A DNA stretch of 64,000 nucleotides from Tetradesmus obliquus (lineage: Eukaryota > Chlorophyta > Chlorophyceae > Sphaeropleales > Scenedesmaceae), in assembly GCA_030272155.1 (NCBI GenBank), contig CP126194.1, positions 6,811,501-6,875,500 on the forward strand, given 5' to 3'. The translations under genes were made by a program, and so were the position numbers. Below are positions 73-64,000 of the stretch, piece by piece. Position 1 is the stretch's first letter; each line of letters begins with the position of its first letter. The notes under the pieces were generated by a model that saw only the letters and a program-made list of their open reading frames with translations, was not told the origin of the DNA and ran no database searches.

Positions 73-3000
73 TGTCGCACTGGGCCAGGCAGCAGGCGAC
101 CGCACCGGCAACCTGCAGGACATCCTGCGGCTGCTCACGCTGTGGTTCACCTGGGGCAGCGCACCCGATGTGGAGGCTGCGCTGCAGGAGGGCTTTGGCC
201 TGGTCAGCATCGACACCTGGCTGGTGGTCATCCCGCAGATCATCGCGCGCATCCACACCAACAACCCGCAGGTGCGGCGCTGCGGACTGAGTGCTGGGAA
301 CTGTATGAGTATGGTCTGTCCATCCTCGTGGATGCCTGCTGAACTCGCAAACGTATGCAAAGTAAGGCTGCCAGCTACTCTGCCATGCGTCTGAGTGGCT
401 GTTAGATAATCGCACTCCCTGCAAATCATTGCGCGCATCCACACGAATAAGCCGCAGGCGCGGCGCTGCGGCGCACAGGGCTGGAAACGCAGCAGCGCCT
501 CGTCATCCTTGTTTGACCAGGTTTGACTTTTTGGTTTCTATTGTTTTTCAACCTCCTGCAGGTGCGCAGCCTCATCCACAGCCTGCTGGTGCGCATCGGG
601 CGGCACCACCCTCAGGCGCTGATGTACCCCCCACTTGTTTGACTCGTTTGACCACCTTTGACCGTAACATGTTCTGTTTGACCGTGCTGCTGCAGGTGCG
701 CAGCCTCATCCACAGCCTGCTGGTGCGCATCGGGCGGCACCACCCTCAGGCGCTGATGTACCCGCTGCTGGTTGCTGCCAAGAGCCAGAGCCCCAGCAGG
801 CGGCAGGCAGCCTATGCGGTGCTGGATGTGGTGCGCACACACTCTGCGACACTGGTGGAGCAGGCGCAGGTAGGTTGGGAGTTCGAGTTTGTTTTTTAAG
901 TCTGGGAGTGAGGCTGGGACCAAATGCATAACTTGCTGCTTACTGCTTGTTAAGAAAAGGGCTAGCTGCATTGGGGTTGATTTGCAGTTCTGGATGGTGA
1001 GCCGCCAAGGCAGTAAACAGTATCATGCCATGCACTCACGGCACACCCAGTGAATAGCATGCGGTGCTGGATGTTGTACGCACACACTCCGCCACGCTGG
1101 TGGAGCAGGCGCAGGTGCTGAGTAGTTTGTGTGTGGTTTGCCAAAGCGCTGTGGAGTGTGGAGGGACATCGAGACAGTGGAATGCACGTTCCGCTGCTCG
1201 CCTGCGTGTATGTTGCTGCAGTCGCCCGCTAGAATGGCAGCCCACCCAGGACTAATGGCATGCACTCACTGCTCAGCACGTGGCTCAGCTTGTGCGAGAG
1301 AGAGGAATCACCTCGCAACCAACCCGCCGCACCTGTCGCTGCATCCTGCTGTACCCCTTGCCCGCGTACCCTGCTGCAGCTGGTGAGCCAGGAGCTGATC
1401 CGCATCCCCTCATATTACAAAGCAGTCTTACAGCCCGTACTGCTGCACCTGCTGCTGCCCACTGCTGCTGCTCCTCACACCTGCGCCCTTGCAGCTTGTG
1501 AGCCAGGAGCTGATCCGCATCGCCATCCTGTGGCACGAGATGTGGCACGAAGCCCTAGAAGAAGCATCCCGGCTGTACTTTGGCGAGTCCAATGTTGAGG
1601 CCATGCTGGGCGTGCTGCTGCCGCTGCACGAGCTCATGGACAAGACGGGGCCCAGCACGCTCAAGGAGATCGCGTTCGTGCAGGTGCGGCCGGCGGGCTG
1701 GCGTTTGGTTGTTGGTGGGCGCGGGTGGGAGGTGCCGTCGTGCTGTTCAGCTGCTTGTCGTGTGTATGCAATGCAGCTTATCAGGGCATGCAACACAGCA
1801 CTTATGACATTTCTCGCTGACAGGGCTGTAAGGTATCATCAAGACGCACGCGCGCACGCACGCACGGTGAATGATGTAATCTATGTAACACTCCGCTGAC
1901 AAACACACGCGCATGCTGTGTTGATTGTATCGATACACGAAACCGTGCCTGCAGGCGTACGGGCGCGAGCTGTCTGAGGCGTACGAGTGGCTGTCCAAGT
2001 ACCGCGGCTCCCGCAAGGAGGCGGAGCTGCACCAGGCCTGGGACCTGTACTACCACGTGTTCAAGCGCATCAACAAGCAGCTGCACAGCCTCACCACGCT
2101 GGAGCTGCAGTACGTGGCGCCAGCACTGGTGAGTTTGCCTTCAACTTCAGAGATGCCATGTACAAACCAGAGTGTGCGGAGAGCCTGTCTTTTGCATGAA
2201 CAGGATGCTTTGGGAGTGTGGGTGCGGTCGCCGCACATTGCGTGGTTGCTGCATGTTTTCAGCATTGTGGGCATGGGTCGTCGTGCTAGGATGTTGGTGT
2301 GTTTGCTGAGACCTGTGGGCCTTGATTTAGTATACGTGCAGCCGCACCACGCTGGAGCTGCAGTTCGTGGCGCCAGCACTGGTGAGCCTTTGCGGGGTTG
2401 TCTGTCAAGCTGTGTGTGTGTACAGCAGTGCTGCACAGCAGTAGTGATTTATGATCTTGGCATGCGTTTTAAACACGTTGGCGATCATGCTTCTTTCGCC
2501 CATGTGCTGTTCAATTGCAGGGGTGTGCGCAAGGCATGGAGTAGGCAGTGCCGCACCTACACCACATTGTGATGGGGTTGTTTTGATACATCTTCATCTG
2601 ACATATTTTTACCGCTGTGCTGTGCTCTTGCAGGTGCGTGCGCAAGGCATGGAGCTGGCAGTGCCAGGCACCTACATCGCTTACTCAACTCACTCAATCT
2701 TACTTTGTCGTCCATGTGCTGTGCTGTGCTCTTGCAGGTGCGTGCGCAAGGCATGGAGCTGGCAGTGCCGGGCACCTACATTGCAGGAGAGCCGCTGGTG
2801 ACCATAGCAGCCTTTGCCCCCCAGCTGCAGGTCATCAGCAGCAAGCAGCGCCCGCGCAAGCTGACCATCCATGGCGGGGATGGAGCCGAGTACATGTTCC
2901 TGCTCAAGGGCCACGAGGTGCGGCGTTACTTTGAGGTGTTACTTTGTTGATTTTTTGTTATTTTGTTACTGCCTTTTGCCATCCATGGAGGGGATGGCGC

Positions 3001-6000
3001 CGAGTACATGTTCCTGCTCAAGGGCCACGAGGTGCGGCAGCAGGGTGTTACGCGTTGCTTATCAAAGCGTTCAAATCTATGTTCTGTACTGCAATGGTGC
3101 AACAGAAAGTGCTCACAGCAATGTGCAGAACATCAGCTGCACGGGACCTCACACAGGCTAGCAGCATTCAACTACTTGACGCGATCCGTGAAGACTACAA
3201 GGCACGTGCAAGAGCACGCAGCGTACGTCTATCCTGCACAGAAGCTCACACGCTGTTTTTCGTCTTCTGTCAATCTACTCGCAGGACCTGCGCCAGGATG
3301 AGCGCGTGATGCAGCTCTTTGGCCTGGTCAACTCCATGCTGAGCGCGGAGCGCAGCACAGCGGAGCGCGACCTGTCCATTGCTCGCTACGCTGTCATCCC
3401 GCTGAGCCCCAACAGCGGTCTGATCGGCTGGGTGCCCAACTGCGACACGCTGCACGCGCTGATTCGGTGAGTGCTGAGTGTCTTGAGTGGGTTGTAATAG
3501 GGGATGCAAGCATTTGTGGCGGACGCGCAGCCATGCGGCTGTCTGAGATAGCACAATCTGCAGCATGTGCGGCATGCATGTATGCGTCATGTATGTTGCA
3601 GCTGCTGCTTGCGGTGGGGAGGGGGGTCCTGCTTATATTGCAATGCATTGCATTTGGGATCCCTCTGAGCCCCAACAGTGGCCTCATCTGCTGGGTGCCC
3701 AACTGCGACACGCTGCATGCACTGATCCGGTGAGGGCTGGGGTGGGTAAAATGACAGATTTAGGCATGGTACATGCACAACCGTTCACCTGCAAGCAATG
3801 CTGGTGTGGTGTGGTTTACAGGGTAGTGTGGGACTGCAGGCGAGGGTATGGCTGCAGGATTGCTGGGTTGTGTTGGGTGCGTGTGCGGCTGCCTGCGGCA
3901 GCAAGTCCTGCAGTCTATCTTCAACACGAATGCATGTCTCATGTATGCTGATGCTTGCTGGTTGCCCTTGCAACCCACATCCTTTCTAAACCTTGCAGCA
4001 ATTAACCTGTTGTATTTGCTATCTCAACCGGGCACGCAGCTAGTACCGCGAGAGCTGCAAGATCCAGTCTTGCTTGCGCTTGCCATCCCTTGCAACCCAC
4101 ATCCTTTTCTACACCTTGCCGTACTTGATCCATTGTTTGCTTTAACTGATCCGCCACGCAGCGAGTACCGTGAAAGCCGCAAGATCCCGCTCAACTGGGA
4201 GCACCGGCTGATGCTCAGCATGGCCCCGGATTATGACCACCTGCCTGTCATCAACAAGGTGGAGGTCTTTGAGTACGCGCTCGACTCCACCAGCGGCGAG
4301 GACCTGCACAAGGTGAGTGGGTTGCTGACTATGTTTGACCAGGTTTGACCAAGATTGACTGAGGTTGACCAGGTGCGACCTGCCTGTCATCAAAAAGGTG
4401 GAGGTCTTTGGGTACGCGCTCGACTCCACCAGCGGCGAGGACCTGCACAAGGTGAGTGGGATGCTGCTTGGTTTGACCAGGGTTGACCAAGGTTGACTGG
4501 GTTTGACCAGGTGCGACCTGCCTGTCATCAACAAGGTGGAGGTCTTCGAGTACGCGCTTGACCCCACCAGCGGCGAGGACCTGCACAAGGTGAGTGGGGT
4601 GCTGACTAGGTTTGACCAGGTTTGACCAAGTTTGACCAGGTTTGACCAGGTGCAATTTGCCTGTCATCAACAAGGTGGAGATTTAGGAGTGCGCGCTCGA
4701 CTCCACCAGCGGCGAGGACCTGCACAAGGTGAGCTGCTTCATGTTTGACCAGGTTTGACCAGGTTTGGCTGGTGTGTCTCTGCTCTCACCTCGCCTCTGC
4801 TGACACTGCCAAATCCTGTATGCCACTTCCTGCAGGTGCTGTGGCTGAAGAGCCGCAACAGCGAGATCTAGCTGCTGCCTTGCCCCATACCCTGAAGCTC
4901 CCTCCGCTGCTGCTGCTGCTGCTGCTGCGTGCTCCTAAACCTTTTGCAGGTGCTGTGTCGCAACAGCCGCAACAGCGAGATCTGCCAATGCTGACACTGC
5001 TGAACCCTGATTGCCACTGCGCAGGTGTTGTGGCTCAAGAGCCGCAACAGCGAGATCTGGCTGGACCGGCGCACCACCTACACGCGCAGCACTGCCGTGA
5101 TGAGCATGGTGGGCTACCTGCTGGGGCTGGGTGACAGGCACCCCAGCAACCTCATGCTGGACAGGTACAGCGGCAAGCTGCTGCACATCGACTTCGGGGA
5201 CTGCTTCGAGGCCAGCATGAACCGCGACAAGTTCCCGGAGAAGGTGAGGGGGCTGTTATGTTGTTGTGTTGATTGTCATGTAACGTGTTGTGTTGTTTGT
5301 ACGCATACATGGCCTTTTGCAGCGGCAAGCTGCTGCACATCGACTTCGGGGACTGCTTCGAGGCCAGCATGAACCGCGACAAGTTCCCGGAAAAGATGAG
5401 GCGGTTGTTATGTTGTTATGTTACTTGTCATGTGACGTGTTGAGTTGTTTGTAAGCAGGCATGGCATTTTGCAGCGGCAAGCTGCTGCACATTGACTTCG
5501 GGGACTGCTTCGAGGCCAGCATGAACCGCGACAAGTTCCCGGAGAAGGTGAGGAGGTTGTTATTTTGTTAGGTTTAATTTTCATGTAACATGTCATGTTG
5601 TTTGTCAGCAACCTCATGCTGGACAGGTACAGTGGCAAGCTGCTGCACATCGGGACTGCTTCGAGGCTAGCATGAACCGCGACAAGTTCCCGGAGAAGGT
5701 GAGGAGGTTGTGATGTTGTTATGTTACTTGTCATGTGACGTGTTGTGTTGTTTGTCAGCAGACATGTCCTTTCGCAGCGGCAAGCTGCTACATATTTACT
5801 TTGACGACTTCTGCGAGGCCAGCATGAACCGCGACAAGTTCCCGGAGAAGGTGAGGGGGCTGTCATGTTATGTCGTCAACCATGTGTTGCATGTCTGTTA
5901 TGTGTACGGGTGGGGTCCCCATGAACTGGTGCTTTGTGTACTGTTCTTTTGGGTGCCCCAGGCCCAGCCAGCATGCGTGCCGCTGCTGACACACACTCTC

Positions 6001-8215
6001 CCAGCTTTCACAAGAGCTGGATGCATGATCACACATCTGGCGCAAGTGGCCCTTCGCTGCTACTTGCATCGACCTGCTGCCAGGTGCTGTTCCAGCTGAC
6101 GCGCATGATACTCAAGGCCATGGAGGTGTCAGACTTCATCCCCTGCACTCAACTGTCTCTTTGCTGCTGTGTGTCTGTGCCTTTCCTCTGGCCTGCTACA
6201 GGTGCCGTTCCGGCTCACGCGCATGATGATCAAGGCCATGGAGGTGTCAGGCATCGAGGGCAACTTCCGCACCACCTGCGAGGCGGTGCTGCGCGTGCTG
6301 CGGCAGCACAAGGACAGCCTCATGGTGCGCGCACGCCAGCGCACGTAGTCGTCTTGTGGTTGTTTCTCTTGACAGCAAAAAGGCTGACAAAGCGCGGCGC
6401 GGCAGCTGCCAATCAAACAATTTGCCCATGTCATACATCCTGCCGTTGCTGTGCACTCTTTGACCTGCAGCCCATGCTGGAGGCCTGATACAGCCTGCAA
6501 CGCTGTTTTTGCAATCCCTTCACATCATCTGCTGCTGCATACTCTTGTCCTGCAGGCCATGCTTGAGGCCTTTGTGCACGACCCGCTCATCAACTGGCGC
6601 CTGCTCAACACCACAGAGGCAGCCACAGAGGCAGCACTGGCCCGAGAGTCCCAGGAGGCAGCAGCAGCCGGCGGGGGCGGGGCTGGCGCGGCGGGCGGCG
6701 TGGCCGTCGGCGGCGCTGCTGCTGTGGGCGGGCCGGGAGCAGTGCTCACAAGTGGGGCTGGGCAGCAGGTGTGTGGGGTTGAGCCAAGTGTTTAGGAGCT
6801 GTTGTCAACAGACAGGCGGGCCTGTTAACAATTGTGCGAATGCCTGCTCCAAAGCGCACTTTTAAGTCCAAGTCTCTTTAACCAACAGCTGCGCTGGCCA
6901 GATCTAAGCAGGTGTCCAGCTGCACTGTTTGCCAACACAGCGCGTCTCCGACAGTGCTCCTGCCTCCTCTCCTCATTGTCACTTCTAGCATACGTAGTTT
7001 ACGCACAACTGTCCCGTCCTGTGCACAACTGCGTGGCGACTGCCTGCAGGGCGAGATGCCGTCGCCGCCGCAGCGTGGCGCGCGGGAGCGGGAGCTGCGG
7101 GAGGCCCGCGACCAGCTGCGGGACCAGCTGGGTGAGTGACAGCAGCACACTGCTGCGCTGTTTGGTTGGACTGCTTTCTTGGCGCTTGGTGTTAGCTTGA
7201 GTTTGAAGGTTGTGTTTTGTCAGTGCTTGCAGCCAGCAGTGGCACCAGCTGGGTGGCACGACACTGCACACAGCACTGAGCTGCACTGCCATGCTGTTAT
7301 CAACATTCGCTTGGTTTGCTGGTGCCAGTATCGTGGCTTCCATGTGTTGCCAGGGCATGCACCCACACCATGCCACCTGTGTATCGTGGCTTCCATGTGT
7401 TGCCAGGGCATGCACCCACACCATGCCACCTGTGTGCGCTGCCACTGACACACTCCATTGCTGCCTGCACACTGCCTTCTGCATTGCCCGCTGCCCACCT
7501 CTCCTGCCCAACGGACCAACAACAACCGCAACTGCACACCACCGCCAACCACCGCACTTGTCAACGTGTATACACACAAACACAGCCGGCGATGCTAGCG
7601 AGGTGCTGAATGAGAGGGCCATGGCAGTCATGCGCCGCATGACTGACAAGCTCATGGGCAGGGACCACATTCTTGAAGGCAGCAGCGCAGCAGCAGAGTG
7701 CGACAGCGTGCCAGCGCAGGTGCAGCGGCTGATCGCGCAGGCCATCAGCCACGAGAACCTCTGCCAGAGCTACATCGGCTGGTGCCCCTTCGTGAGTGAT
7801 GCGGCGCTGCTTGTGTCTGGTTTGGCTGCACAGTTGTTGTTAGTGCAGCATGTTGGGTTGAGACCTTGTGCCAGAGCTACATCGGCTGGTGCCCCTTTGT
7901 GAGTGCCAATTTGTTTGCTGTTTGGTGGAGACGTTGCGCAGGTGTCGGCGCTGCTGCATGTTGTGCGGCTGGTGCAGCGATGGAATGTCTGTGGCTGCCA
8001 TGCTGCTTGCATCGCACACACCGCTGTGCATGCTTTTCTTGAATGTGCTGTTCGCTTGGCAGAGTGATGGCAAAGTGAGTTGAATCGCCAGTGGTGTACA
8101 TAGCCTTTGGCTGCTTGACCTGCTCCATTCCTACCAACAACTGCTGCTGCTGCTGCTGCTGCTCCTGCTGCTGCTGCCCGCTCACCTGCTGCCGTTCTGC
8201 GTGCTGCAGTGGTGA
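73..8215 (+). CDS. TOR: TOR (target of rapamycin) kinase, 3' part
   Basis: Serine/threonine kinase of the PIKK family, the catalytic core of TOR complexes that couple nutrients to growth. The 5' part lies outside the window. Exons: 73-271, 696-869, 1495-1683, 1955-2128, 2738-2917, 3285-3466, 4162-4312, 5025-5243, 6202-6324, 6556-6768, 7050-7131, 7586-7791 and 8210-8215; reading phases agree at every junction, giving about 698 residues. In order they encode the end of the FAT domain ([15 protein letters not shown]), the FRB domain ([20 protein letters not shown] to [12 protein letters not shown]), the kinase domain ([19 protein letters not shown], catalytic loop [14 protein letters not shown], metal-binding HIDFGDCFE) and FATC ([13 protein letters not shown] plus W). 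A low-complexity Gly/Ala insert sits between kinase and FATC, where other TORs have their variable linker. Introns are crowded with partial copies of neighbouring exons. Identity is clear from near-colinear match to remembered mTOR; exact exon ends are inferred. Confidence 0.96.
424..4732 (+). repeat. Partial exon-junction copies in TOR introns (first half)
   Basis: Copies of exon edges, each with its splice site, lie in the introns: end of exon 73-271 at 424-471; start of exon 696-869 at 562-629; its end at about 1055-1114; start of exon 1495 at about 1376-1412; end of exon 1955-2128 at about 2338-2391; start of exon 2738 at about 2519-2560 and 2634-2672; its end at about 2980-3033; end of exon 3285-3466 at about 3655-3733; end of exon 4162-4312 three times at about 4376-4456, 4511-4595 and 4650-4732. 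Copies differ from the parent by a few substitutions. They are not part of the conserved protein, because each repeats residues already present once. Confidence 0.88.
4833..7902 (+). repeat. Partial exon-junction copies in TOR introns (second half)
   Basis: The pattern continues: start of exon 5025 copied at about 4833-4870 and 4948-4984; end of exon 5025-5243, carrying the [20 protein letters not shown] region of the kinase, copied four times at about 5322-5398, 5474-5551, 5606-5703 and 5777-5854; start of exon 6202 at about 6080-6132; start of exon 6556 at about 6470-6488; end of exon 7586-7791 (SYIGWCPF) at about 7868-7902. Start copies always lie upstream and end copies downstream of the parent, as expected for local tandem duplications across a splice junction. 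Confidence 0.88.
7329..7434 (+). repeat. 53-bp tandem duplication in a TOR intron
   Basis: Two back-to-back, apparently identical copies of a 53-bp unit (7329-7381 and 7382-7434) beginning TATCGTGGCTTCCATG, inside the intron between exons 7050-7131 and 7586-7791. Identity of the copies points to a recent event. No coding similarity was recognised. Confidence 0.85.
8210..8215 (+). CDS. TOR: TOR terminal coding exon: one Trp codon plus stop
   Basis: Exon 7586-7791 ends in TTC after YIGWCPF, directly before a GTGAGT donor. All TOR proteins end in ...WCPFW. The next place where an AG acceptor is followed by TGG-TGA is CTGCAG|TGG TGA at 8205-8215, which restores the invariant C-terminal Trp. The final coding exon therefore contributes only six bases before the 3' UTR. 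Without this splice the frame would read into the intron as WCPFVSDAA, losing the FATC terminus. This is inferred from the family's invariant end and the splice consensus. Confidence 0.8.
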   Translation, partial: W

Positions 8216-10323
8216 GGCCCCTCTGTGTGGCTGCCTGCCATGCCCTTCACAGCAATGCCGGCGGCTTCGCTGCAGCTCGGCGCCTATGCAGCAGTGGCTT
8301 TTGACCTGCTCGGCACATATGCTGCAGTGGATTGAGCCACACAACCTGGGGAACCTCGGACATGCCATATGCAGCAGCGGCTGTTGTGTGCAGCCAGCCG
8401 AAGCTGCATGTGGTGCCTTGCGCTCAGCAACTGCCTCGCCAGCACGACTCCTGCAGCACTTGGCCGGGGCGCTTTCATAAGCTCGTAGCCATAAGCTAAG
8501 TAGGCAGCAGCTGCGAGATGATGTGCACGTATCATCGCTGCGTGGTGATGGTTGGGGTATGTCCATAAATGTTCTGAATGATGTTCGCTGCTGAGTCGTC
8601 AGCGTCGCACACGTGTACCGATTGCACATGCTTCATGCGCCCTGTGGCGCTTTGCTAGGCAGGCCAGTCGCAGCTGCTGAGATTGTCTTTTCTTGATGTT
8701 CTAGTGTCCCAGCATACGCGCGCTAGCTAGTGTCTGTAAGCGCTGCATGTGTGGTGCGCTGCAGTTGTGTTGCCAGTACAGCTGCACTGCTGTGACTATC
8801 AAAGAGCGGCGTAGACTGTTCAGCGGCATGTGCATCTGCACGCTGCATGTTGCAGTCGTTGCGTGCAGCGTGCTGTGTGCTTCGAGGTGTTTGCACCGCA
8901 TGCGTGCATGTGTTGTCGACATGTGTGACTCCGTGCTGCTGGTTGCTGAGCAGCAGTTCAGTGTGACAGTGTCGGCAGCAGACACTGCAGGTATTCTCTG
9001 TCGTGTGCACATCCCAGGGCCGCCACTTTAGACACAATGTAGGGTACTGTTGTGAGCAGCAGAATTGCCAGTGACTCTTTCAGCTGCAGTGGATTTCTGG
9101 GCGCAACCAGAGCATAGATACAGCCTGCTGCTGAGGCTGCCACTTGCCTGCTGTGGCCGACCCTCCACAGCAGCGTGGTGTTTGTGATTCATGCATTGGT
9201 TTTCTGTGGTTCAAGCACCTTTGAAATGTGGAACGGGGTGACACACCAGCAGCCAGATATATGGATCTGGTGCATATATGTGCTCCTCAGCAACGATGGT
9301 GCTGTGGCACACTCGATGCACCGCCTGCATGCACGCTGTAACTCTTTCACCGAACGCACTGTACTAGTGTTGACCAGCTGCAGCTTGTGATGAATTCAAT
9401 CGGCAACTTCCTTTATATGCAGCTGCACACTGCCAGTTCATCATTGACTGGTGGAGCATGACTGCCTGGTAAGCCATCCCATGTGGTCTTCACGGAGGAT
9501 CATACACTGCATTGATTGCGTGCGTTGATTTCTTTTAGATATTTCCTTCCAGCTGCATTCACAGGCGCAAACTTGCAAACTGTCAAACTTCTGGCAAACT
9601 TCTGCTTGCAGGAGCTGCCGCAACTGCGGCAGCCGGTGTCCTGCGCAGGCCCTAAACACGGCCACAGCAAACAAAGTGAACTTACGAGATACTTTTACTC
9701 AAATTCAGCAACAAGGAGGAGAAGCCAGTCGCAGCAAGATCGGGGGACACGATTCTAGCCCGGGGGGACAAGTTATTCTGGCCTCAACACCTGTAGTAGG
9801 CAACGAGTTGTTGTATATCGGTCAACGAGCGCGCCTTACACAGCCAATGTGGTACTATTTATACTGTATGTTGCTAGTTCTCAACAGCCAGCGTCCCAAC
9901 TGGACCTGGCCATATAGTAGCTGCTGGGCTTTTTACACCGGGCGCCTCACGGCAACAATCTCCTTGAAAAGTCCCAGGGCATCTTCTAACTAGTATTTTG
10001 TTGATGCGCTGTGGTGTACTGGCGCCTACTCCTGTTCGCCAGGCTTCTTTCAGCACGGGCGGGTGTGCCGGGCAGCAGCCTTGTGCCGTTCTCAGCCAGA
10101 ACAACAATCAAAACCATGTTCAAGGTACTTATATGCTTGAATCGGCGGCCGCAAGTGCGTGTGTGTCTGGCAGCAACGCGCGGCACTACCCACATGAACA
10201 CAGCCTCAGTACAGTTGCTCACAAGCAGCCTGCGAAACCGCCGCGGGCAGAAACGCGTCGAGTCAGAATGTAGCTCAAATCAAACCAATCGCTGACCATA
10301 CCTCGTTTGGTGTCGCCTTGCAG
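8216..10323. other. TOR 3' UTR and intergenic / promoter stretch
   Basis: No protein family was recognised on either strand. The first part is probably TOR 3' UTR. An open frame at 9676-9993 (105 codons) has no recognisable domain and unremarkable composition. A possible tiny first exon of the next gene, ATG TTC AAG before a GTACTT donor, lies at 10116-10124. Confidence 0.5.
8735..8739 (+). terminator. TGTAA, possible polyadenylation signal of TOR
   Basis: TGTAA is the usual poly(A) signal in volvocine and related chlorophycean algae. This copy lies about 520 bases after the TOR stop. The pentamer is short and occurs by chance, so support is weak. Confidence 0.3.
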
Positions 10324-11114: not shown

Positions 11115-11147
<33 letters not shown>

Positions 11148-15318: not shown

Positions 15319-15407
15319 GTTAGCCTGCATCATCATCATCATGTTACCCATCAAGCCATAGCATCAACGCCATCGGCCCCGCGCCCCAATGGAGCGTTAG
15401 CCTGCAT
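15319..15407 (-). mobile_element. Very short 5'-truncated LINE 3' end with target-site duplication
   Basis: Bases 15331-15395 match the 3' end of the LINE at 28079-28561, including the CATCGGCCCCGCGCCCC block and the terminal trinucleotide tail (ATG/TGA repeats on the element's sense strand). The fragment is flanked by perfect 12-bp direct repeats GTTAGCCTGCAT at 15319-15330 and 15396-15407. About 65 bp remain, so this is an extreme 5' truncation, as expected from target-primed reverse transcription that aborted early. It carries no coding capacity. Confidence 0.85.
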
Positions 15408-17031: not shown

Positions 17032-17076
<45 letters not shown>

Positions 17077-29506: not shown

Positions 29507-35118
<5,612 letters not shown>

Positions 35119-39715: not shown

Positions 39716-39860
39716 CTGCGGGCAGGGCAGGCAGCAGTATGTTTGGTTGCAACGCGTGTGTGTTTGGTTGCGGCGCATGCGCATAAGTTCAATTACGAAT
39801 CCTGTGCTGCATGTAGCTGCAGGTAGGGCAGGATAAAGGCAAGCAACCAGCGCACTCACA
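37150..39860 (-). repeat. Partial exon-junction copies in JMJD6 introns
   Basis: Examples: the start of exon 37074 (LPKEPGL) is copied at about 37170-37210. The end of exon 38502-38273 ([18 protein letters not shown] region) is copied at about 38020-38090 and more diverged at about 37735-37805. The start of exon 39002 ([10 protein letters not shown]) is copied at about 39140-39180. The end of exon 39715-39565 is copied at about 39320-39375. The start of exon 39715 is copied at about 39800-39830 before the exon. Orientation rules are the same as in plus-strand genes. Confidence 0.82.
37880..37960 (-). ncRNA. Long hairpin inside a JMJD6 intron, candidate small-RNA precursor
   Basis: Arms 37880-37914 and 37926-37960 (35 nt each) are complementary except at one position, with an 11-nt loop. 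On the JMJD6 sense (minus) strand the single non-match becomes a G-U pair, so the stem is fully paired in the transcript; on the plus strand it would be a C-A mismatch. It lies in the intron between exons 38502-38273 and 37519-37390. Long, well-paired hairpins in introns are typical sources of miRNAs in Chlamydomonas. No expression evidence exists here. Confidence 0.5.
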
Positions 39861-47862: not shown

Positions 47863-49098
47863 TCACAGGCGGGCGGCTGGCTTTGCCGCTGCTGCTGCTG
47901 CTAGCCGAGCTACAGCCGCAGCCAGCTTGCCGTGCGCCTCATCATACAGCGCCGGCACCACCGCTGCCCGCACTGCCGCCATCCACTGGCGCACTATGGG
48001 GTGTGGCGCCAGCAGCTGCTCCAGCTGCGGTTGACTGGGCTCAGCCACCATCATCCTGCAACAAGTAAGTGTGCATATGCGCAGGCAGCGAGCGCGACAT
48101 CAAATTACGGGGCTCGTGCATAGCAATCGGGTGTAACATGATGAATTCTATACAAAGCCAGGATAGCCAGGAGGCGGGTGTGGCGCCAGCAGCTGCTGCA
48201 GCCACCATCATCCTGCAACAACAGCGCGCACACACTAGAAGATCTACCATGTGTTTGTGCTTGATAGTGGAGTATGGAGTAGCATGTGTGTGGGGAGCCA
48301 GCAGCTGCTCCAGTTGAGGCTGGCTGGGCTCAGCCACCATCATCCTGCAACAAGTAAGTGTTCATACGCCCAGGCAGCAAGCGCGACATCAAATGATGGG
48401 GCTCGTGGACAGCAATCGGGTGTGGCGCCAGCAGCTGCTGCAGCCACCATCGTCCTGCAACAACAGCGCACACACACCGAAATATCTACCATGTGTTTGT
48501 GCTTGATAGTGGCGTATGAATTCGCATGTGGGTGGGGCGCTGGCAGCTGCTCCAGCTGAGGCTGACTGGGCTCAGCCACCATCATCCTGCAGCGACAACA
48601 GCGTGAACAACTGTGCAGCCAGCGAGCAGGATACTGCAGGATGTGTCTTTGACTATGGTGATCTCAGCGCTGGTCTTGTTACGACGCAAAAAGATCGGTG
48701 GTGTGTTTGTGCTCAATACTGTGAACACTGGGTTGGCAATTGGGTGGGGCGCCAGCAGCTGCTCCAGCTGCGGCGGACTAGGCTCAGCCACCATCATCCT
48801 GCAAACACATTGTGCACAAATGCGCAGCAAGCCAGCAGGGAGTTTGTGGTGTAGATCAAAGGTGTTATTGACAGACGTTTTTGACATGCGTAACTGCTCA
48901 AGGATGCACTATATTGTTATTTGTTAGCTGACCAAGGCATGCTGCGTCCGTGCAATCAACAGCTATCCCACCTCAACTGCTCCAGGTCACACACGCACAG
49001 CAGGTCTGGCGTTGACACCTGCTGCCCTGTCATGAAGGGCCGGCTGCCACCCCCCAGCCAGTAGGACTCCAGGTCCTTCAGTGCCTGCTGCAGCACCT

Positions 49099-49149
<51 letters not shown>

Positions 49150-49472: not shown

Positions 49473-49518
<46 letters not shown>

Positions 49519-50075: not shown

Positions 50076-50145
<70 letters not shown>

Positions 50146-52366: not shown

Positions 52367-52398
<32 letters not shown>

Positions 52399-52532
52399 AT
52401 CTGCTGCTGCAGGGACCGGCTGCCTGGTCTGCTGCAGGCTGGCGCGTTTGACTGGGTGGCCTGCACCTCGCCTGAGTCAGCAGCAGTGTTCCTGGAGGGA
52501 TGGAGGGCAGCAGGCTCACCAAAGGTGAGGCA

Positions 52533-52574
<42 letters not shown>

Positions 52575-52747
52575 GGGTATCAGTTGCAGTGGCAGCAGCA
52601 GTGTTCTTGGAGGGCTGGAGGGCAGCAGGCTCGCCAAAGGTGAGGCAGCAGCAGCAGCAGCAGCAGCAGCCGTAGGGTATCGGTTGTGAAGCGGCAGCAG
52701 TGTTCTTGGAGGGCTGGAGGGCAGCAGGCTCGCCACAGGTGAGGCCA

Positions 52748-52807
<60 letters not shown>

Positions 52808-53770
52808 GTTTCAATTGCAGTGGCCGCAGCAGTGTTCCTGGAGGGCTGGAGGGCAGCTGGCTCGCCAAAGGTGAGGCAGGCAGCAGCAGCAGCAACAGCA
52901 GCAGCAGCCGCAGGGTGTTGGTTGTGAAGCGGCAGCAGTGCTCCTTGAGGGCAGCAGGCTCGCCTAAGGTGAGGCCAGGAAGCAGCAGCGCCATCACCAG
53001 CAGCAGCAGCGACAGCAGCAGTTCTCTTGCTTGACTTGGTGGCAGCAGTGTTCCTGGAGGGCTGGAGGGCAGCAGGCTGAGGCGGCAGCAGCACCAGCAG
53101 CAGCAGCACCAGCAGCAACTACTGGACGATGTGTCAGCAAGTGGCATCTAACATATGCTGTTGTGCTGTTGTTATGTGCAGGTGCGGGTGGCTGTGGTGG
53201 GTGGCGGCACTGGCGAGGTGCTGGCAGCAGCAGGCGTCACGCCGGAGTTCACAGCCACCAAGGTGGGCGGCGGTGAATTGACTGTTATACTTTCTGTTAC
53301 AAGTCATTGTGCCAGCAGCTGGTGCCCGGACAGCTCTAACTGCCACCAAGGTGGGCGCAGCCGCCAAAAGACTGCTTTGAATTTCAACGCGTTGGACATC
53401 TGGGTGTCAGCAAGTAGTGCCCATGCTTATTACATCACAGCCTAAGTCGTAGCAGTACAGAACAATTGCCCCTCAGCCCACTCACGTGACGCCGAGCTTG
53501 GGCTACTGCTGTTTGTTTCTCATACACCTGCATGTCTCACACAGTTAGTGTCCAATACCCTGTGCACAACTGCTACTCATTGCAGCTTGTAATTGCATGG
53601 GCTCCGCAGTGGAAAAGGAACTTTCACAATGAAAACCTGACCCTGTGCTGCTGCTGCTGCTGCTGCTGCTGCAGGCGCTGGGCAAGGTGATGGGTGCTGA
53701 GCTGCCTCACAGCCCAGGTGGCAGCGATGTGGTGCTGTTGTGAGCCAATCATAAATCTATGTTTTGAACC

Positions 53771-53841
<71 letters not shown>

Positions 53842-55404
53842 CGCAGGCGCTGGGCAAGGTGATGGGTGCTGAGCTGCCGCACATCCCAGGTGGCAGCGAC
53901 GTGGTGCTGTACCCTGCCAGTGTGAAGGCCTCAACTGACCTGCAGGACAGCCTGGCAGCAGCAGGCTTCAGCGTGCAGCGCATCAACACCTACAACACGG
54001 TAAGGGGTGTGAAGCTGCCAATGTAACGTGATGGGGTCTATAGGCCGGAATCGAGGCTCAGAGGCATCGCCTTTTGGGGTATCGTTACAGCCAACTTGCA
54101 GCACTGCGCATAAGTAACACAGACAACCCTCGATAGCTTGGTACACAACTGAATCAGTTCACCATATAGCAGAGCCTCATGCTCCCTGCCTGCAGTGCAC
54201 TACCCTGCTGGTTGCTGGCACCGACTGCCGATGTGGCTGCACTGCTGCTGCTGCTCCCTGCTTGGCTGCAGCAGATTGGCATCAGCACTGTGGATCAGGC
54301 GCTGCTGCAGCAGGCGCTGGCTGCTGACGTGGTCACCTTTGGCTCGCCCTCGGCAGTCAAGTGAGTAGCAAGAAGGTGTTTGTTTTGCGGTTTATGGTTA
54401 AGCTTGGGTGCCAGGTGTAGGTGTAGCTGCTGACGTGGTCACCTTCGGCTTACCCTCTGCAGTCAAGTGAGTAGCATACTGTTACATGTACAGTTGAACT
54501 TATGGCTGTAGCTGCTGGCGTAGCATTAGGTGAAGCTGAAGGTGAAGCTTAGGTGAAGGTGTGGGTCTGGCTGCTGGCGTGGTCACCTTCGGCTCGCCCT
54601 CCGCAGTCAAGTGAGTAGCAAACAGGTGTTAGTTTTGCATGTTATGGTTTTAGCTTGGGTGCCAGGTGTGGGTGCAGCTGCTGATGTGGTCACCTTCGGC
54701 TCACCCTCCGCAGTCAAGTGAGTAGCAAACCCGGTTGGTATTTGCAGATTTGGATCTAGGCTGGCTGTCAGGTGTAGGTGTAGCTGCTGACACCGCCACC
54801 TTCGGCTCGCCCTCCGCAGTCAAGTGAGTGGCAGACATGAGGGTTTTGATTCCTTGAACAGCCAGCAGGCGCTTTCACTTCTGAAGCTGCTACTCCATCA
54901 GTCAGTGGTGAACTTGCTGACGTATCCACAAGGTTGCCGATGCCTACAGTATGGTTAGGACAGCCAAGCTTGGTGGGCCTGCCAGCGCACAGCATGCTTT
55001 TTATGGCATGTTGAATACACCTGCTCATGATTCTAACACCCTGTTGCCACAAGTTTTGCAAATTGGTGCTGCGCCGACACTGCAGGGCCTGGGTGGCGCT
55101 GGTGGGCCTGCAAGCAGCCGCACAGCACATACTGTGTACACGTTGTAACAGCCTGCTGCCACTTCTTTCCTCATACTGCTGCTGCGCCGCACACTGCAGG
55201 GCCTGGGTGGCGCTGGTGGGCCTGCAAGCAGCCGCACAGAAGATGAATGTGTGCATCGGCTCCACATCAGCGCGGGCTTGTGGCAACGTGGGGCTGCCTG
55301 CAGACACAGTCATCTTCCCGGATGCGCCGGGCATCGATGAGTGGGCCCGCTGCGTGCTGCAAGGGCTGCAGAAGATCGGCAAGCTGCCTGCGGTGGTGGC
55401 GTGA
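51737..55404 (+). CDS. UROS: Uroporphyrinogen-III synthase, plastid-targeted
   Basis: Closes and rearranges hydroxymethylbilane to uroporphyrinogen III, the branch point to chlorophyll, haem and sirohaem. Exons: 51737-51809, 51941-52085, 52413-52524, 53182-53262, 53847-53999, 54272-54360 and 55200-55404, in phase, 285 residues. The first exon plus the start of the second give [20 protein letters not shown] then [12 protein letters not shown], a basic, Ser/Gln-rich plastid transit peptide with a VRCA-type cleavage site at about residue 29. The mature protein shows the usual two-lobe pattern: [98 protein letters not shown] and [20 protein letters not shown] is poorly conserved in all lineages, so identity rests on motif order. 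Introns contain large arrays of exon-end copies with CAG runs. Confidence 0.9.
52595..53090 (+). repeat. Array of UROS exon-3 ends, each with donor and CAG run
   Basis: The end of exon 52413-52524 (GTGTTC..GGAGGG, coding [13 protein letters not shown]) with its GTGAGG donor is repeated five more times at about 52600-52645, 52700-52745, 52828-52873, 52935-52970 and 53045-53085. Between them lie CAG runs of different lengths, including (CAG)19 at 52750-52806. The parent exon is also followed by such a run at about 52535-52572. The unit is therefore [exon end + donor + CAG run]. Confidence 0.93.
53330..55125 (+). repeat. Further exon-junction copies in UROS introns
   Basis: The end of exon 53182-53262 is copied at about 53335-53355. 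The start of exon 53847 is copied at about 53674-53740 behind its own CTG run. The end of exon 54272-54360 ([13 protein letters not shown] plus GTGAGT) is repeated four times at about 54425-54475, 54570-54620, 54675-54725 and 54780-54830. The start of exon 55200 is copied at about 55078-55125. Copies of the last exon's end also lie downstream of the stop, at about 55505-55560. Confidence 0.9.
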
Positions 55405-58266
55405 GCTGTCAGTTTCGACAGCAGTCTTATTGCAGTAGGCAGTGCATTTGCGCGCGTGTTGGTCAGTGGTTGCAGCGGTGGCTGGGTTGCAGCGGTGGCT
55501 GGTGGCGCTGGAAGGACTGCAGAAGATTGGCAAGCTGTCCGTTGCAGTGGTGGCCTGTGTGCTGTGTAGCACAGCCTCAGGCTGTTACACTGAGCTACAT
55601 TTTTGAGGAGTGGCTGTTGGTGGCTGTAGTGGTTGGCCAGCTATGGGTAGTGCTGCAGCTGCAGCTGCAGAGGCTGAGCAAGTATAAGCTGCCTGCAGTG
55701 CTGGCCTGGAGTGCTTGTGGTGGATGGAGCTTGTGGGCAAGAGGGGACTAGCATGGCTGCAATGCGGCCCAGCGGGGGTGAGGTTGAGAGTCAGCCTGGC
55801 TGCTGCATGCTTGCACAGAGGGGTGCATTGCCAGCAGCAGTGAGTGCTTTGGTGCACTTTGCGCTTTTGAGGAACTCAATCAGCACGCACTTCATATACC
55901 TGTATTGTATCAGTATCAGTAGCTGTAGCTACGCATGATGGAGGCATAACGGCAGGATCTGGCTTGGGGTGTGGATGAGCAGTACTCAACCCATGTGTGC
56001 GCCTGGCGATTGTGCAGTTGCACTGCAACTGGTAGCCACACAACCCAAATTCTGAAAACTCCATGTTAACAACAGCCTTTTTGTCTAGAAGTGTTGATTT
56101 CATAGTTGTCAAAGGCTTTGTCACACCTACTTCTGGGCTGGTTTGGGTGGTTCTGGGCAACAGACTGCAGTCCATGATGCAGCAGCTGCATGCTGCCTGA
56201 AGTCACGGCAGCGCTGGTTGAGGACTGTCTTCAAGACGGCAGTGCAGCAATTGGCGCAGCTGTCGGCCGCAGTATGTACAGCGCCGCACACAAGCGTTAT
56301 CATGGTGATGGGTGCAGTGGGGGCTTGTCGTGTGGCCTTCCAAGCCGCCGTGTACGCTGGCATGCAGCAATCTATGAGGCACAACTTGGCGCGGCACCAA
56401 GTTGTGCCTCATAGATTGCTGCATGCCACGGTAAACGGCGGCTTGGCAGGCCACAAACGAAAAGCCCCACTGCATCACCATGCTTTCAAAAAGCAGGCCA
56501 CCTGTAAGACCTCTTCAGCAGCACACGCAAGCAGCATGTGAAGGTCCATACATGCAGCCTTGCCTCAAAAGCTGCAGGCCATGGCATGCGGGGTGGGCCA
56601 CCGGCCACACTGAGTACGCATTATATTGCATTGTCCTTTGCAATGTATGCGTGACCTGCAATTCTTTGTACTTCCACCTAGTCAGCTCGCCGCTGGCCTG
56701 CCAATGAAGCCATGCAAAGCCAAAGCGTGCCTCCCCAAGAGCATAGGCAAAACCTCTAGTGGTGAACAGCAACTGCTTGCGGATGAAACGACTTGTACCA
56801 GCAGCAGCAGCAGCAGCAGCAGCAGAGGATCTGCGAAGCAACACTGTGTAGCAGCTGCGGGTGCGTGGCGCTTGGGCGCGGCAGTGCGCTGCTGCTACTG
56901 CGGTGCTTGCGGACGCAAGCGCCACTACGTTGCTCTGCTGCTGCTGCTGATGCTGATGCCAGCTGCAGTGGGGCATGCTGCAGGAAGTGCTATACAGTGC
57001 ATCTGTGAAAGAACTGATCCTCTGGGAGCAGCGCTGCAGATCCATTGAGGCTGCCGAGCTGCATGACGGGTGAAAGACCGCCGCTGTTCGGCTGGGGATA
57101 GACCTGCACGGGGTTCCTGCAAGGCGCAAGACAGGCACAGCAGCAGTGGTCAGCAACTGCTTCCTAAAAACTTCAAATGTGCAGCAGTTGTGACGTTAGC
57201 GTAGACGACACAAGCAGCACAACAGCGCTTGGCACGCAAGACATCACACAACTGCAGCAGCACAGGCCTCAGAAGCTAATGCTCGGCAAGCCCAAAGGCT
57301 TACGGTGGTTGATCCTTTGTAATAGCACTTCATCAAAGGCCATGAAGACATGTCAACATGCTCTGAAAGTAATGTTGCCCAAAAGATGCAGAAAGCTTTC
57401 AGACCAAAGAAGATGACAAGCGCTGGACACACGAGACACTTACTAGCAAGCAGGCATCAGTTTGTCAGAGGTGAATTTTTTCTACAAGGCCTTTGGCCAT
57501 TCAGTAGAACGAAAGTTTCATGTGAACATCATCTGCCTGCACAGGTTCAACACATGCACAGCAGCACGCACTTCAACTGCTGCTGCAACAGCAGCAGCAC
57601 CTTCAAGGCGGCACCAGCTGTGCAGCACCCCGGAAACAGGTACAAACGACCTTGAAACTGTTTAAAATCCTCTACATTTAACGGCACGCGGCACGCGACT
57701 GCAGAACACGCCTCAAGCTCACCTGGCAAAAAGGCGCCTCCTTCAGCTTGTCCTGCTCTCATGAGGTCCCGAGTTCAAACTGCAGTTTGCTGTTCGCAAC
57801 GCTGAGGAAGTGAACAAGGTATAGCATCGGCAGAACAAGTGCAAGCAATGCCTGGACGGCGGTGGGCGCCGCGTGCAGTGTTGCAATGCTGCGTTGCACA
57901 ACGATGGAAGTGCAGATGGCTTGTCAGCAGACATCATAATATGGCAACAGCCACCAGTTGACGATCAAGCAGCTGGGCGCTATAAGGTGGCTGCGCTTGT
58001 GCAGACAGCACCCAACCCTTCCTGCCAGAACCCTCACGTAACCAGACACGCTAAGCACTGATCAAAGGCGCTACAACTCAATTGGAAACTGTTTGTTGTT
58101 GATTAAACACTGGGTGCCAACGACCCACACGTCACTGCACACGTCGGACCTCCTGTAATCACATACACTCGCACAGCTTCGAACGCACCAACAAGCTCGA
58201 GGAGTTGTTTGTGACCTGCGTTTCTTAACACGGTTGCGTGGTGATCCGTTGTCATCACCCTGCATC
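55405..58266. other. UROS 3' region, unknown stretch and TRX promoter
   Basis: No protein family was recognised. A 213-codon minus-strand open frame at 57156-56515 is the longest; its N-terminal part and an alternative frame (near 57110-57005) have protein-like composition, but no domain, start or splice pattern could be confirmed. A long hairpin lies at 56301-56482. Confidence 0.45.
56301..56482. ncRNA. Long near-perfect inverted repeat, candidate small-RNA hairpin
   Basis: Arms 56301-56389 and 56397-56482 fold on each other around a 7-nt loop. The inner 29 bp (56361-56389 with 56397-56425, beginning CATGCAGCAATCTATGAGG) are perfectly paired. The outer part, to CATGGTGATG / CATCACCATG, has scattered mismatches and small bulges. 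This gradient from perfect to imperfect pairing is like algal miRNA precursors and young inverted duplications of gene fragments. No terminal repeats or target duplication were seen, so a MITE is less likely. The producing strand cannot be told. Confidence 0.55.
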
Positions 58267-59261: not shown

Positions 59262-59335
<74 letters not shown>

Positions 59336-60218
59336 GATCGCGCGTCACACAGGCAAGGCCATCGCGCCAATCTACGAGCAGCTAGCGCAGCAGTACCCGG
59401 GCGTGAAGTTTCTGAAGGTGGACATTGACAATGAGGGCTTGATGGAGGTGGTGCAGGAGCACGGCATCACAGGCGTGGTGAGGGGGCTGGCTGAGGTGTA
59501 AGCATAAGAATGCTTGTTACAATTGGTGTCAAGCAAAGACATTTGCAAAGTGCAATGCAAGGCCTAGGGCTGGCTGCGGGTTGTAAGTACCATGTTTTGT
59601 TTTGATGTGAACCTGATGTGAACCTGATGTGAATCCACCTTTTAATCAGCATGCTATCAGGGCTTGATGGAGGTGGTGCAGGGGGAGCACGGCATCACGG
59701 GCGTGGTGAGGCAGGCAATCATGACATTTGATGCAGAAGGGCAGGGGCAGTGCTGCTGTGTGAGCAGCGGCAGGCGGCTGCCTCTGCACAACTGCTGCGC
59801 TCAAGCATTTCATCGCGTAGAACGCAGGTTTTTAGGTTCCTGTTGTTGTTTGTCTCAGCTGCTGCATGCCGTCGGCTGGCTGCCTGGGTTATCCAGGCTG
59901 CAACAAGCAGCAATAGAAACCTTGAAACATTGTTTTTTTGCGAGATGGACTTTTCACTGCCCACCAGCGCACCATCCTACTTCCCAGGGCATAATGTGCA
60001 AGGCCCCGCACAAGGCGGAGGTGTCCACTGTGGAAGTAGCCCTCAAGAGCAACAGTATGCCCTGCATCCAGCTGAAATCTGCTGCTGCATGTCGCCTGTG
60101 TGTTCTGCTGCCGCGCCAGCCCACCTTCACGATGTACAAGGGCCCCCGCAAGGTTGAGAACTTCACCGGGGCGCGCATTGACCTGCTGCGCAAGGTGCTG
60201 CAGCAGCACGCCAGCTGA
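58267..60218 (+). CDS. TRXo: Mitochondrial thioredoxin (o type)
   Basis: Small dithiol oxidoreductase that reduces target disulfides. Exons: 58267-58387, 58481-58546, 59038-59091, 59353-59477 and 60120-60218, in phase, 154 residues. The first exon encodes a typical mitochondrial presequence: MLSAATSAVRQSLPSTCAAA then LLASSSWRTAWSSGIRGYAS, Arg/Ser/Ala-rich without acids and with a likely cleavage near RGYAS. The thioredoxin fold follows: AVAIIDFTAKWCGPCKAIAP with the redox centre WCGPC at about 77-81, FLKVDIDNEGLMEVVQEHGI, then TGVPTFTMYKG with the cis-Pro at about 123. Trx o is assigned from the presequence and overall match; an h-type with a fortuitous leader is the alternative. The in-frame ATG at 58234 is less likely because it adds acidic and proline residues. 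Intron 3 has CAG after the donor and (CTG)22 before the acceptor. Confidence 0.9.
59097..59333 (+). repeat. CAG run after donor and (CTG)22 before acceptor in one TRX intron
   Basis: The intron 59092-59352 starts GTGAGCAGCAG and continues as a CAG run to about 59120, then has (CTG)22 at 59268-59333 just before the acceptor. The two runs are complementary, so the intron ends could pair in the transcript. A copy of the next exon's end (LMEVVQ..HGITGV plus donor) lies in the following intron at about 59662-59708. Confidence 0.9.
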
Positions 60219-62521: not shown

Positions 62522-64000
62522 GTGGGCACAGCAGCAGCAGCAGCAGCAGCTGCTGCAGAAGGGTGCACAGTCTGCTGCTTTGCCACAACCAGATTACAGC
62601 TGCTGCTGCTGCTGCTGCTGCCAAATAGCTTGCAAGCTGAATGCCGTTGTTTCCAACTGCACATGAGCATTCTACTGCACAAAATTCCCGCTTGCCTTTC
62701 TCCAGCTGTGTTGTGCAGCTGCTTGATTGATTAAACCTTCACCTCTGCAGAAAGTGGACTTGCAAGCATACCTACGCTAGCATCAGGAACAGCACCCACC
62801 ATCTGCCGGCCCTGCCCCTGCTGAAACTGCGCTGCAGACTTTGCTCCTATCCTCAGCTACGTTGCCGGCCAAGGCGCTGTTGCTATCAGCATGTCTGCTG
62901 TTGCCTCTTCCAAGCGGCTGCCCCACCTGCTGCCCGACTTGAGGCAGCAGGCGCTGCCACAAGCATGCCATGCAGTGCTGGCGTGGCAGCCAGCAGCAGG
63001 AGCAGCCGCCAGGAAGCAGCAGCAGCAGCAGCAGATTGCCAGCAGCCAAGTAAAGCATCATATGGTGGTCAGCACCACCACCAGCAGCAGCAGCAGCAGC
63101 AGCAGCGGCAGCAGCCCAGGTGTCACCACGAGTGCTGGCAGGGTGATCCTTGCTGGGTCAGGATGGCATGCAGTAGCAGCAGCAGGCGAAGCAGCAGCAG
63201 CAGTGGACGCCCAAGGAGGCCCTGCTCAGTTCATTGAAGCAGCCTGGATAAATCCAAATAAGGCACTTGAGCAGCAGCAGCAGCAGCACTTGAGCCAACT
63301 TCCTGGCTAGGGTGCTTGTGTTTCCGCCAAGTTCCTTGCGCCTTGCGTTGTCCTGCAAGCACCACTGCGAACAGCACAGCGGTTGGCTTCAGGCTGTGCG
63401 CTATGCTGCAGCAGCAGGTCAGGGTGGCACGCAGCACTTGATTGCAGGTGAACGGTCGTGCATTTACCATGCCTAAAACTGTCATATTACTTGAGCTGGC
63501 TCTGTGGCTGCCCTGTGCTCTTGCTGTAGCAGCAGAAGAGCTACTTGCAGCAGCCGTGGGAGTCCATGTCAGATGGATGCTGCAGCAGCTGCAGCTGCTG
63601 CTGCTGCTGCGCCCCTCACGTGGCAAGCATGAATTCCGAAAGTCTTATGCTGTGTGCGCGTGACGGAGCAGAGGTGAGTGGAGGGTGGCCTGCTGGCAGC
63701 ATTGGCTGAGAGTGGGGCTCCTGCATGTGCAGTTGCAGGCTTTGTTGCACCTGCTGCGCTGTGCTGCACATTTGCTGACGTAGGGTTTTCTCATTCTTTC
63801 TGTTTGATCAGGCGCTTGCTGTTAGCTCTGCCCAGGCTTGCTGCAGGTGCCATGCCGCCTGCTGTTGACAGACAGTTTGCATGTTGCATGTGAGCAATCT
63901 GTGCTGTGGTGCCATGCTGTGCGTGTTTGCGGCTGAAGGTCATCAGCATGCGTGTTGTGCTGTGCAGGTCGCCGCAGGTGGCAACAGCATCATGCAGGGG
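62522..64000 (+). other. Downstream part of the NYN gene, unresolved
   Basis: Contains an open frame at 62891-63310 (139 codons, Ala/Gln/Ser-rich, repeat-derived), a possible exon from 63784 to about 63889 with a GTGAGC donor, and a possible acceptor CTGTGCAG at about 63961-63968 near the window edge. None could be tied securely to a conserved protein. CAG and CTG runs are frequent. Confidence 0.35.

Follow-up and report, generated by a model that had tools for sequence, protein, structure and literature searches.

In the RdRp gene of potato, a tandem duplication reaching from the 3′ end of an intron into the 5′ portion of the exon has been described in which the branch site, polypyrimidine tract and acceptor were inherited, and the same study mentions an 83-bp tandem duplication within an intron (PMC4974935). 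Intron gain through duplication of an AGGT-containing exon segment is a related route (Rogers 1989; Hellsten 2011, as told in PMC4974935), and for polyubiquitin dual-specific splice sites have been reported in tandem repeat genes (PMC10809524). Here we report that in a 64,000-nucleotide stretch of the green alga Tetradesmus obliquus (GenBank assembly GCA_030272155.1, contig CP126194.1, positions 6,811,501 to 6,875,500; hereafter the window), and in further sequence from the same genome, many introns contain short copies of the edge of the adjacent exon, each usually with its own splice dinucleotide. Where tandem repeats evolve in concert, through gene conversion or through unequal exchange, their copies are more alike than the flanks; here homogenisation appears to be confined to the exon-derived half of the duplicated unit.

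The sequence examined comprises the window, 10 kb on each side of it and blocks of C1, C2, C6, C7 and C12, in all 314 kb drawn from six of the 17 contigs that make up a genome of 104.66 Mb. We aligned exon-edge 50-mers with the introns of their own gene, leaving out low-complexity queries and introns outside 60-2500 bp, with the reverse strand, length-matched introns of other genes, far edges and exon middles as controls. At a score of at least 40, exon starts were copied in the upstream intron at 41 of 353 edges (acceptor-type copies) and exon ends in the downstream intron at 43 of 343 (donor-type copies). For both classes the reverse strand and the introns of other genes gave none, and the far edges were equally bare, with 0/184 exon starts copied in the downstream intron and 0/187 exon ends in the upstream intron. 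Exon-middle 50-mers yielded 5/172 (control 1) and 2/181 (reverse strand 1). A self-BLAST comparison blind to junctions returned 206 local direct pairs against 1 inverted pair once low-complexity pairs were removed. The preliminary description of the window had claimed a constant geometry, with exon starts copied upstream and exon ends downstream on both strands, and the counts bear this out; its further claim that exon interiors are not copied on their own holds in the sense that such copies are rare.

The potato RdRp duplication is likewise a junction-crossing tandem duplication; there, a new intron and added exon sequence resulted, whereas here we see no sign of a new intron, the outer copy is apparently skipped in full, about 12% of tested exon edges are involved, and the exon halves outlast the intron halves (PMC4974935). 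Intron gain by the AGGT route shares with our loci a local tandem duplication whose effect on the protein is cancelled by splicing, but here longer introns enclose the copies, and the inner splice site appears to be the one used. Our loci do not fit this route, which would give a new intron with the two copies at its ends: the copies lie at least 76 bp from their own edge, and the far edges carry none. In polyubiquitin, as here, the borders of tandem repeats coincide with splice-site motifs, but there the repeats are coding and alternatively spliced, whereas here the outer copies look like unconstrained decoys (PMC10809524). A literature search among open-access papers, judged by titles and the openings of abstracts and with most subscription papers outside its scope, found no description of the pattern; the potato duplication came nearest to it.

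These counts rest on gene models from a purpose-written, self-trained, two-strand hidden Markov gene finder, which worked from sequence only, converged on the donor CAG/GTGAG and the acceptor CTGCAG/G, and returned 42 genes. From 541 predicted exons we dropped 58 shorter than 20 bp and 49 that matched a larger neighbour, the latter being echoes miscalled as exons, and kept 434 for counting. Some models fuse neighbours (malate synthase with JmjC, GST with the malate synthase N-terminus, and thioredoxin with NYN), and frame breaks are present in those of TOR (four) and HemD (one). The window, with a GC content of 56% and intron-rich genes, contains TOR, P5C reductase (P5CR), an ABC transporter, an alginate-lyase-like gene, malate synthase, a JmjC/cupin gene, GST, HemD, thioredoxin and NYN. 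Genome size, GC content and intron density are similar to those published for Tetradesmus (Scenedesmus) obliquus, namely 108 Mb, 57% GC, a mean intron of 462 bp and 7.8 introns per gene (PMC5966456); for another S. obliquus strain, 172.3 Mb and the lowest GC of the table in question have been reported (PMC7590803).

At least one edge copy was present in 72 of 385 introns overall and in 25 of 67 in the window, so that the pattern extends beyond the window, and 18 of the 40 genes having a counted intron carry copies. The earlier statements that "every gene" and "nearly all" introns are affected were therefore too strong. Copies are strongly clustered by gene: TOR has 22 copy-bearing edges, genes with 28, 33 and 37 introns have none, and copy-rich and copy-free genes adjoin one another. 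A single copy was found at 48 of 84 edges and two to seven at the other 36. Identity between exon and copy ranges from 81 to 100%, in keeping with the differing ages proposed at the outset. Donor- and acceptor-type copies occurred together in 12 introns, where 11.6 were expected given the gene, and we accordingly rejected the idea that both arise in a single event. Extra exon copies lie almost entirely in the two introns adjacent to the exon (79 and 66), with 6 in all other introns of the same gene.

The TOR kinase gene, whose 3′ part occupies 73..8335 on the forward strand of the window (gene model; Pfam FRB_dom and PI3_PI4_kinase) and whose start lies upstream, illustrates the system best. 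Twelve of its introns start in the window and eight have copies, at eight donor-type and five acceptor-type edges; the "about 20 cases" first counted in this gene correspond to 20 copies at these 13 edges, and to 34 in the whole model. When the decoys were removed, the cleaned protein (547 aa) aligned with human mTOR over its residues 10-547, a span of 538 residues, with a single one-residue gap, which identifies the inner copy as the real exon edge in the aligned part. Seven forward-strand exon ends found by self-BLAST have copies downstream, in simple form or in series: 232..471 (exon to 271, copy 418-471), 814..1116 (exon to 869, copy 1059-1116), 2086..2393 (exon to 2128), 2865..3038 (exon to 2917, sharing 53 bp of exon and 7 bp of intron) and 3396..3739 (exon to 3466), together with a 139-bp tandem array of three decoys at 4239..4772 (exon to 4312), in which exon and intron parts are both repeated, and a 152-bp tandem array of four decoys at 5168..5869 (exon to 5243). 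The eighth lies at 7753..7905 (exon to 7819 in the model; self-BLAST). Exon starts with upstream copies, again from self-BLAST and on the same strand, are found at 553..763 (exon from 696, copy 553-629; also aligned), 1326..1524 (from 1495), 2503..2784 (from 2738, two copies), 4798..5063 (from 5025, two copies) and 6073..6250 (from 6202). At 553..763 the exon part is identical at 68 of 68 positions and the intron flank retains merely residual likeness. Between the echoes, TGACCAGGTT/GTTTGACC minisatellite repeats occur at 4603-4651 and in neighbouring TOR introns. A TOR intron also contains, at 7328-7435, a perfect 53-bp duplication (two copies, 100%) that lies off the modelled junctions and is apparently very recent.

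Several features support an origin by local tandem duplication, as the preliminary description proposed. Adjacent copies are spaced at a median of 129 bp (interquartile range 115-158, n = 146; 73% within 90-160 bp), and arrays reach five to seven copies, some with a common period. A duplicated unit holding both exon and intron is plain in several arrays, including TOR 4239-4767, TOR 5168-5869 and one upstream of the window at −9912, and is residual at single-copy junctions, where the flanks of exon and copy are alike at the same offset in 18 of 45 cases (p<0.05, counting from 12 bp past the junction, with shifted positions in the same intron and sequence of the same gene as controls; the other 27 are individually non-significant). 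Counted from 30 bp past the junction, this likeness persists at 11 of 41; about 2 are expected in each comparison. The same flank homology weakens the possibility that the spacers are inserted filler, and that they are mobile elements is weakened by a genome-wide search with two of the roughly 84 nearest spacers, each of which was found only in its own place and local copy. Introner elements would recur as related sequences across many introns; when introns were compared between genes, BLAST returned 298 hits, of which the six longest join duplicate genes; the next among those listed have 71-79% identity over 77-103 bp and mostly involve one intron. Copy-bearing introns are longer than copy-free ones (medians 540 and 270 bp). 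Subtracting whole units brought their lengths closer to those of all copy-free introns (Kolmogorov-Smirnov D 0.18, p 0.04) than subtracting exon letters alone (D 0.42), yet taken with the within-gene comparisons given below, intron length is equivocal as support for the addition of whole units.

The outer copies look like decoys under little or no coding constraint. Across 84 exon-copy pairs, mismatches by codon position were 76:59:221 and codon changes comprised 191 synonymous and 125 nonsynonymous; the decoys have 17 frame-breaking against 2 frame-keeping indels, and 4 stops. We considered whether the third-position excess marked coding constraint on the decoys or a divergent haplotype, and dropped both ideas because comparisons of decoy with decoy share much of it (25:28:51 where flanks are alike, 48:67:119 where they are unlike). 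The decoy comparisons thus have a high baseline at third positions; by informal arithmetic, the differences between exon and decoy are then those expected if both are equally old, the exon being constrained and the decoy free. Decoys differ from one another about as much as spacers do (0.079 against 0.097 in 14 spacer pairs, which were selected for alike spacers), and in arrays they look star-like around the exon where flanks are unlike (d ratio 0.60, against 0.52 with alike flanks). Tandem, mutually exclusive exons were rejected on these grounds: the frameshifts, stops and decoy-decoy codon pattern are not those of a duplicate exon under coding constraint.

The extra splice sites noted in the preliminary description are present at nearly all best copies, with GT at 38 of 43 and AG at 37 of 41. 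Donor context scores were 2.96 for copies, 2.74 for real sites and −2.21 at random; the acceptor equivalents were 2.30, 3.49 and −2.64, with weaker acceptor context in older pairs (−0.41 below 90% identity). Nothing in the sequence suggests that these sites are useful. Copy periods are evenly spread modulo 3 (25/30/29), read-through to the decoy site would meet a stop at 39 of 43 donor-type and 20 of 41 acceptor-type copies, and 4 of the 41 acceptor-type decoys are in frame without a stop, so that use of a decoy site would usually be predicted to break the protein.

A puzzling feature of the copies is that their exon-derived halves are better preserved than the intron sequence linked to them. 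Among 144 copies grouped into exon-identity classes averaging 77, 83, 88, 92 and 97%, flank identity was 63, 65, 66, 69 and 70%, against 57-59% for unrelated flanks; exon copies more alike than their linked flanks are expected under gene conversion in small arrays. In the 25 copies with at least 95% exon identity, flanks fell below 70% in 15 and reached 85% or more in 4. Of the 23 local pairs listed, irrespective of junctions, at 94% identity or more over at least 30 bp (one 82-bp satellite region left out), 16 are junction pairs; 14 of these share 29-105 bp of exon and just 3-25 bp of intron, and the other two are a plain tandem with 145 bp of intron and a pair 1.3 kb apart whose exon part is 17 bp and intron part 36 bp. 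The rest of that list consists of six intron-only pairs, five of them in TOR upstream of the window, and one pair just within an exon. Where the best exon parts exceed 97% (15 pairs), intron homology is 20 bp or less in 11. Donor-type identity drops at the junction, from 0.93-0.98 in the exon to 0.49 by positions +9 to +12 (control 0.25), and mismatches in the exon part are almost flat up to the junction, with slight clustering (longest-run mean z 0.33, standard error 0.10). GC content is 62% in copies and 52% in flanks. The asymmetry itself is observed; it suggests an exon-biased homogenisation of the exon-derived halves.

Repeat clusters are concentrated at exon edges: 87 of 102 touch one, 9 are intron-only (3 of which resemble the neighbouring exon) and 6 are intergenic, in 75 kb; these classes rest on the gene models, and exon-intron pairs off modelled junctions were counted as junction. 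Intron intervals outside repeats have a weak excess of local self-similarity (11.15 against 10.40 and 10.32). Together with the corresponding intergenic values given below, these figures imply that births are biased towards genes, that exon-linked duplicates stay visible for much longer, or both. The end of the coding sequence is also copied 3′ of the stop codon: among 25 genes, 3 have such a copy at a score of at least 34 and 2 at 40 or more, with none on the reverse strand or in controls. The weakest, in P5CR, scores 35 and sits in a CAG-rich stretch; a fourth, in the ABC transporter, was found by a tandem repeat finder (TRF) and is absent from the edge-score hits. In the four aligned cases, identities on the coding and 3′ sides were 0.80/0.60, 0.80/0.72, 0.72/0.54 and 0.64/0.51. 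Few as they are, these cases suggest that a duplication needs coding sequence on one flank and a tolerant sequence on the other, and that the splice site is not what counts. Because copies span stop codons and some arrays are wholly intronic or intergenic, a splice-specific mutational target is not needed, and splicing itself is probably not the target. Of the two alternatives first offered, that the process "favours" splice junctions is right numerically for the copies that are visible, and its being "only tolerated" there accounts for the geometry.

The reading that we prefer, with somewhat better than even confidence in it as a whole, is that tandem duplications crossing exon borders are filtered by the survival of the mRNA, that the resulting decoys are free of constraint, and that exon halves are homogenised. 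Local head-to-tail duplications, in units mostly of 90-160 bp, would survive at a border if they leave the mature mRNA as it was: the splice site of the inner copy, or the stop codon that comes first, would stay in use, and the outer copy would be lost with the intron or come to lie in the 3′ flank. Judged from the anatomy of the copies, such a filter would by itself account for a geometry that does not vary and for how seldom an exon interior is copied alone. Outer copies do decay under little or no coding constraint, and the pair may stay recognisable because the functional exon copy is under purifying selection. The exon-derived halves have, in addition, remained or become similar more recently than the intron flanks. 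The likeliest cause is gene conversion over short distances, or unequal exchange, with the exon, which is conserved and richer in GC than the flanks, as its anchor and the decoy as its partner; this is the simplest known agent. A ratchet that holds the arrays in place is also conceivable, in that an exchange deleting the array would place decayed decoy sequence in the exon.

A number of results weigh against this reading. Uniform tandem duplication plus tolerance predicts that 10-35% of clusters should fall at junctions for units of 60-200 bp, far fewer than the 87 of 102 seen, and intergenic intervals have little or no excess of weak self-similarity (10.29 against 9.91 and 10.25). At start codons, copies were found in 0 of 27 cases. 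The reading does not explain the heterogeneity of copy rate between genes (chi-squared 118.4, 25 degrees of freedom). In terminal copies of multi-copy arrays the flank homology is weaker, at 9 of 32 and, farther out, 3 of 27; against copy-free introns of the same gene, subtracting whole units (D 0.26) does hardly better than subtracting exon letters (D 0.30), both differences being significant, and the within-gene slope, at 76 ± 21 bp for each copy, falls short of one whole unit. As regards homogenisation, mosaic tracts are not evident in a mismatch-run test (5% of 109 pairs at p<0.05). When conversion that depends on divergence was roughly simulated, pairs conserved only in the exon were in every case fewer than those conserved on both sides (at best 0.037 against 0.090), which counts against the reading because the observed order is the reverse (15 against 4 of 25).

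The abrupt drop in identity at the junction and the near-flat mismatch profile within the exon would be explained directly if the exon edge were copied into the intron just as far as the splice site, from a spliced RNA or cDNA template or by a break coupled to splicing, or if decoys were rewritten from RNA. The pairs with little shared intron (14 of the 16 at 94% or more, and 11 of the 15 best) argue in the same direction, as do the two spacers found nowhere else in the genome and a slope lying between the exon letters and the whole unit. Against it, of 688 hits in a cDNA search for spliced retro-copies, 102 of which cross an exon-exon junction by at least 10 bases, nine were aligned by eye and none was spliced; many of the crossing hits, to judge by the tabulated matches, look like self-matches over the junction or low complexity, and one candidate in C12 has exon-end and exon-start copies about 40 bp apart and unjoined. 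The restriction of extra copies to adjacent introns and the residual flank homology of many pairs also count against it. Moreover, the four stop-codon cases share the direction of the asymmetry, though there the 3′ flank is presumably transcribed with the exon, and templating by spliced RNA is not needed at these sites. We regard exon-limited copying as unlikely. A broader proposal, by extrapolation from the 314 kb, is that an exon-limited, possibly RNA-templated, conversion keeps renewing the decoys from the coding sequence of the same gene, so that thousands of introns of this genome would contain fresh echoes set in old, decayed flanks; we give it a low probability, if not quite so low.

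Duplications might instead be born preferentially at exon-intron borders, through transcription, chromatin or the boundaries of GC-rich exons. The preponderance of clusters at exon edges and the sparse intergenic clusters, with little or no weak self-similarity there, would suit this view, but in an informal tally the arrays with clearly repeated flanks are spread more nearly uniformly (about 12 junction, 8 intron-only and 5 intergenic), and stop codons acquire copies at a roughly similar rate; junction-targeted mutation therefore seems to us doubtful, more so than exon-limited copying. That haplotypes or overlapping contig ends were set in tandem during assembly is very improbable. Near-identity limited to exons and differences rich in third positions would suit joined haplotypes, but the copies grade continuously in age and carry frameshifts and stops, the third-position excess between decoys makes a divergent haplotype unnecessary, arrays reach five to seven copies and some have a common period, and copy-rich genes stand beside copy-free ones. 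Least credible is selection of the copies for splicing regulation or alternative isoforms: their splice context is good overall, but it weakens in older acceptor copies, frameshifts and stops build up, periods are not multiples of 3, and decoys diverge from one another much as spacers do.

Copies occur in other genes of the window as well. On the forward strand, the ABC transporter has an exon end (to 22127) followed by two decoys with a unit of about 91-95 bp (22092..22328; self-BLAST), an exon start (from 24286) with two upstream copies (24031..24342; self-BLAST), and the 128-bp tandem duplication across its stop codon, with the copy in the 3′ flank (25663..25897; TRF, alignment). The alginate-lyase-like gene (30524..33966; PF05426; self-BLAST, Pfam) has three donor-type exon-end copies, and in HemD one exon end (to 52524) is followed by a decoy array (52478..53119; self-BLAST), another (to 54360) by four decoys (54317..54837), and the last exon by a copy of the coding-sequence end 3′ of the stop codon (55356..55565; self-BLAST, alignment). 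The only copy found in the fused thioredoxin/NYN model within the window lies downstream of a thioredoxin exon end (59431..59711; self-BLAST). On the reverse strand, an upstream intron of P5CR contains an old copy of a segment close to the exon start, under the cut-off of the edge test (17304..17491; self-BLAST), the joined malate synthase and JmjC/cupin model (36313..45305) has three donor-type and four acceptor-type copy-bearing edges, and a GST exon start has several upstream copies (47996..48839; self-BLAST).

Other repeats were seen outside the exon-edge system. Short dispersed repeats, direct and inverted and 82-90% identical, occur in the window at 15333-15396, 28078-28141 and 61617-61676, and at 3746-3803 and 63432-63490. 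Long GCA/TGC triplet runs are frequent outside exons (17032-17100, 32626-32732, 34929-35011, 50080-50160 and others), and runs of Q and A abound in many of the predicted proteins. Elsewhere, an 82-bp satellite array of about 18 copies at 98-99% identity lies within a predicted intron of C12 (L025:211-1735). Two genes about 4.4 kb apart in C2 (L011:7209-8827 and L012:1608-3226), which from reading the protein we take to encode ARL-like GTPases, have identical introns and represent either a very recent tandem duplication or an assembly duplicate; two tandem gene copies in C7 (L018:5919-8029 and L019:144-2609), presumably for ribosomal protein L6 by the look of the protein, also have identical introns.

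On a practical level, gene finders will take decoys for exons, as happened with 49 predicted exons here. With exon halves decoupled from intron halves, local gene conversion, or rewriting from an RNA template, can be put to a direct test. For T. obliquus, the copies amount to a rich natural archive of tandem duplications of gene parts that have passed the filter of splicing; they place many decoy splice sites in genes and may lengthen introns.

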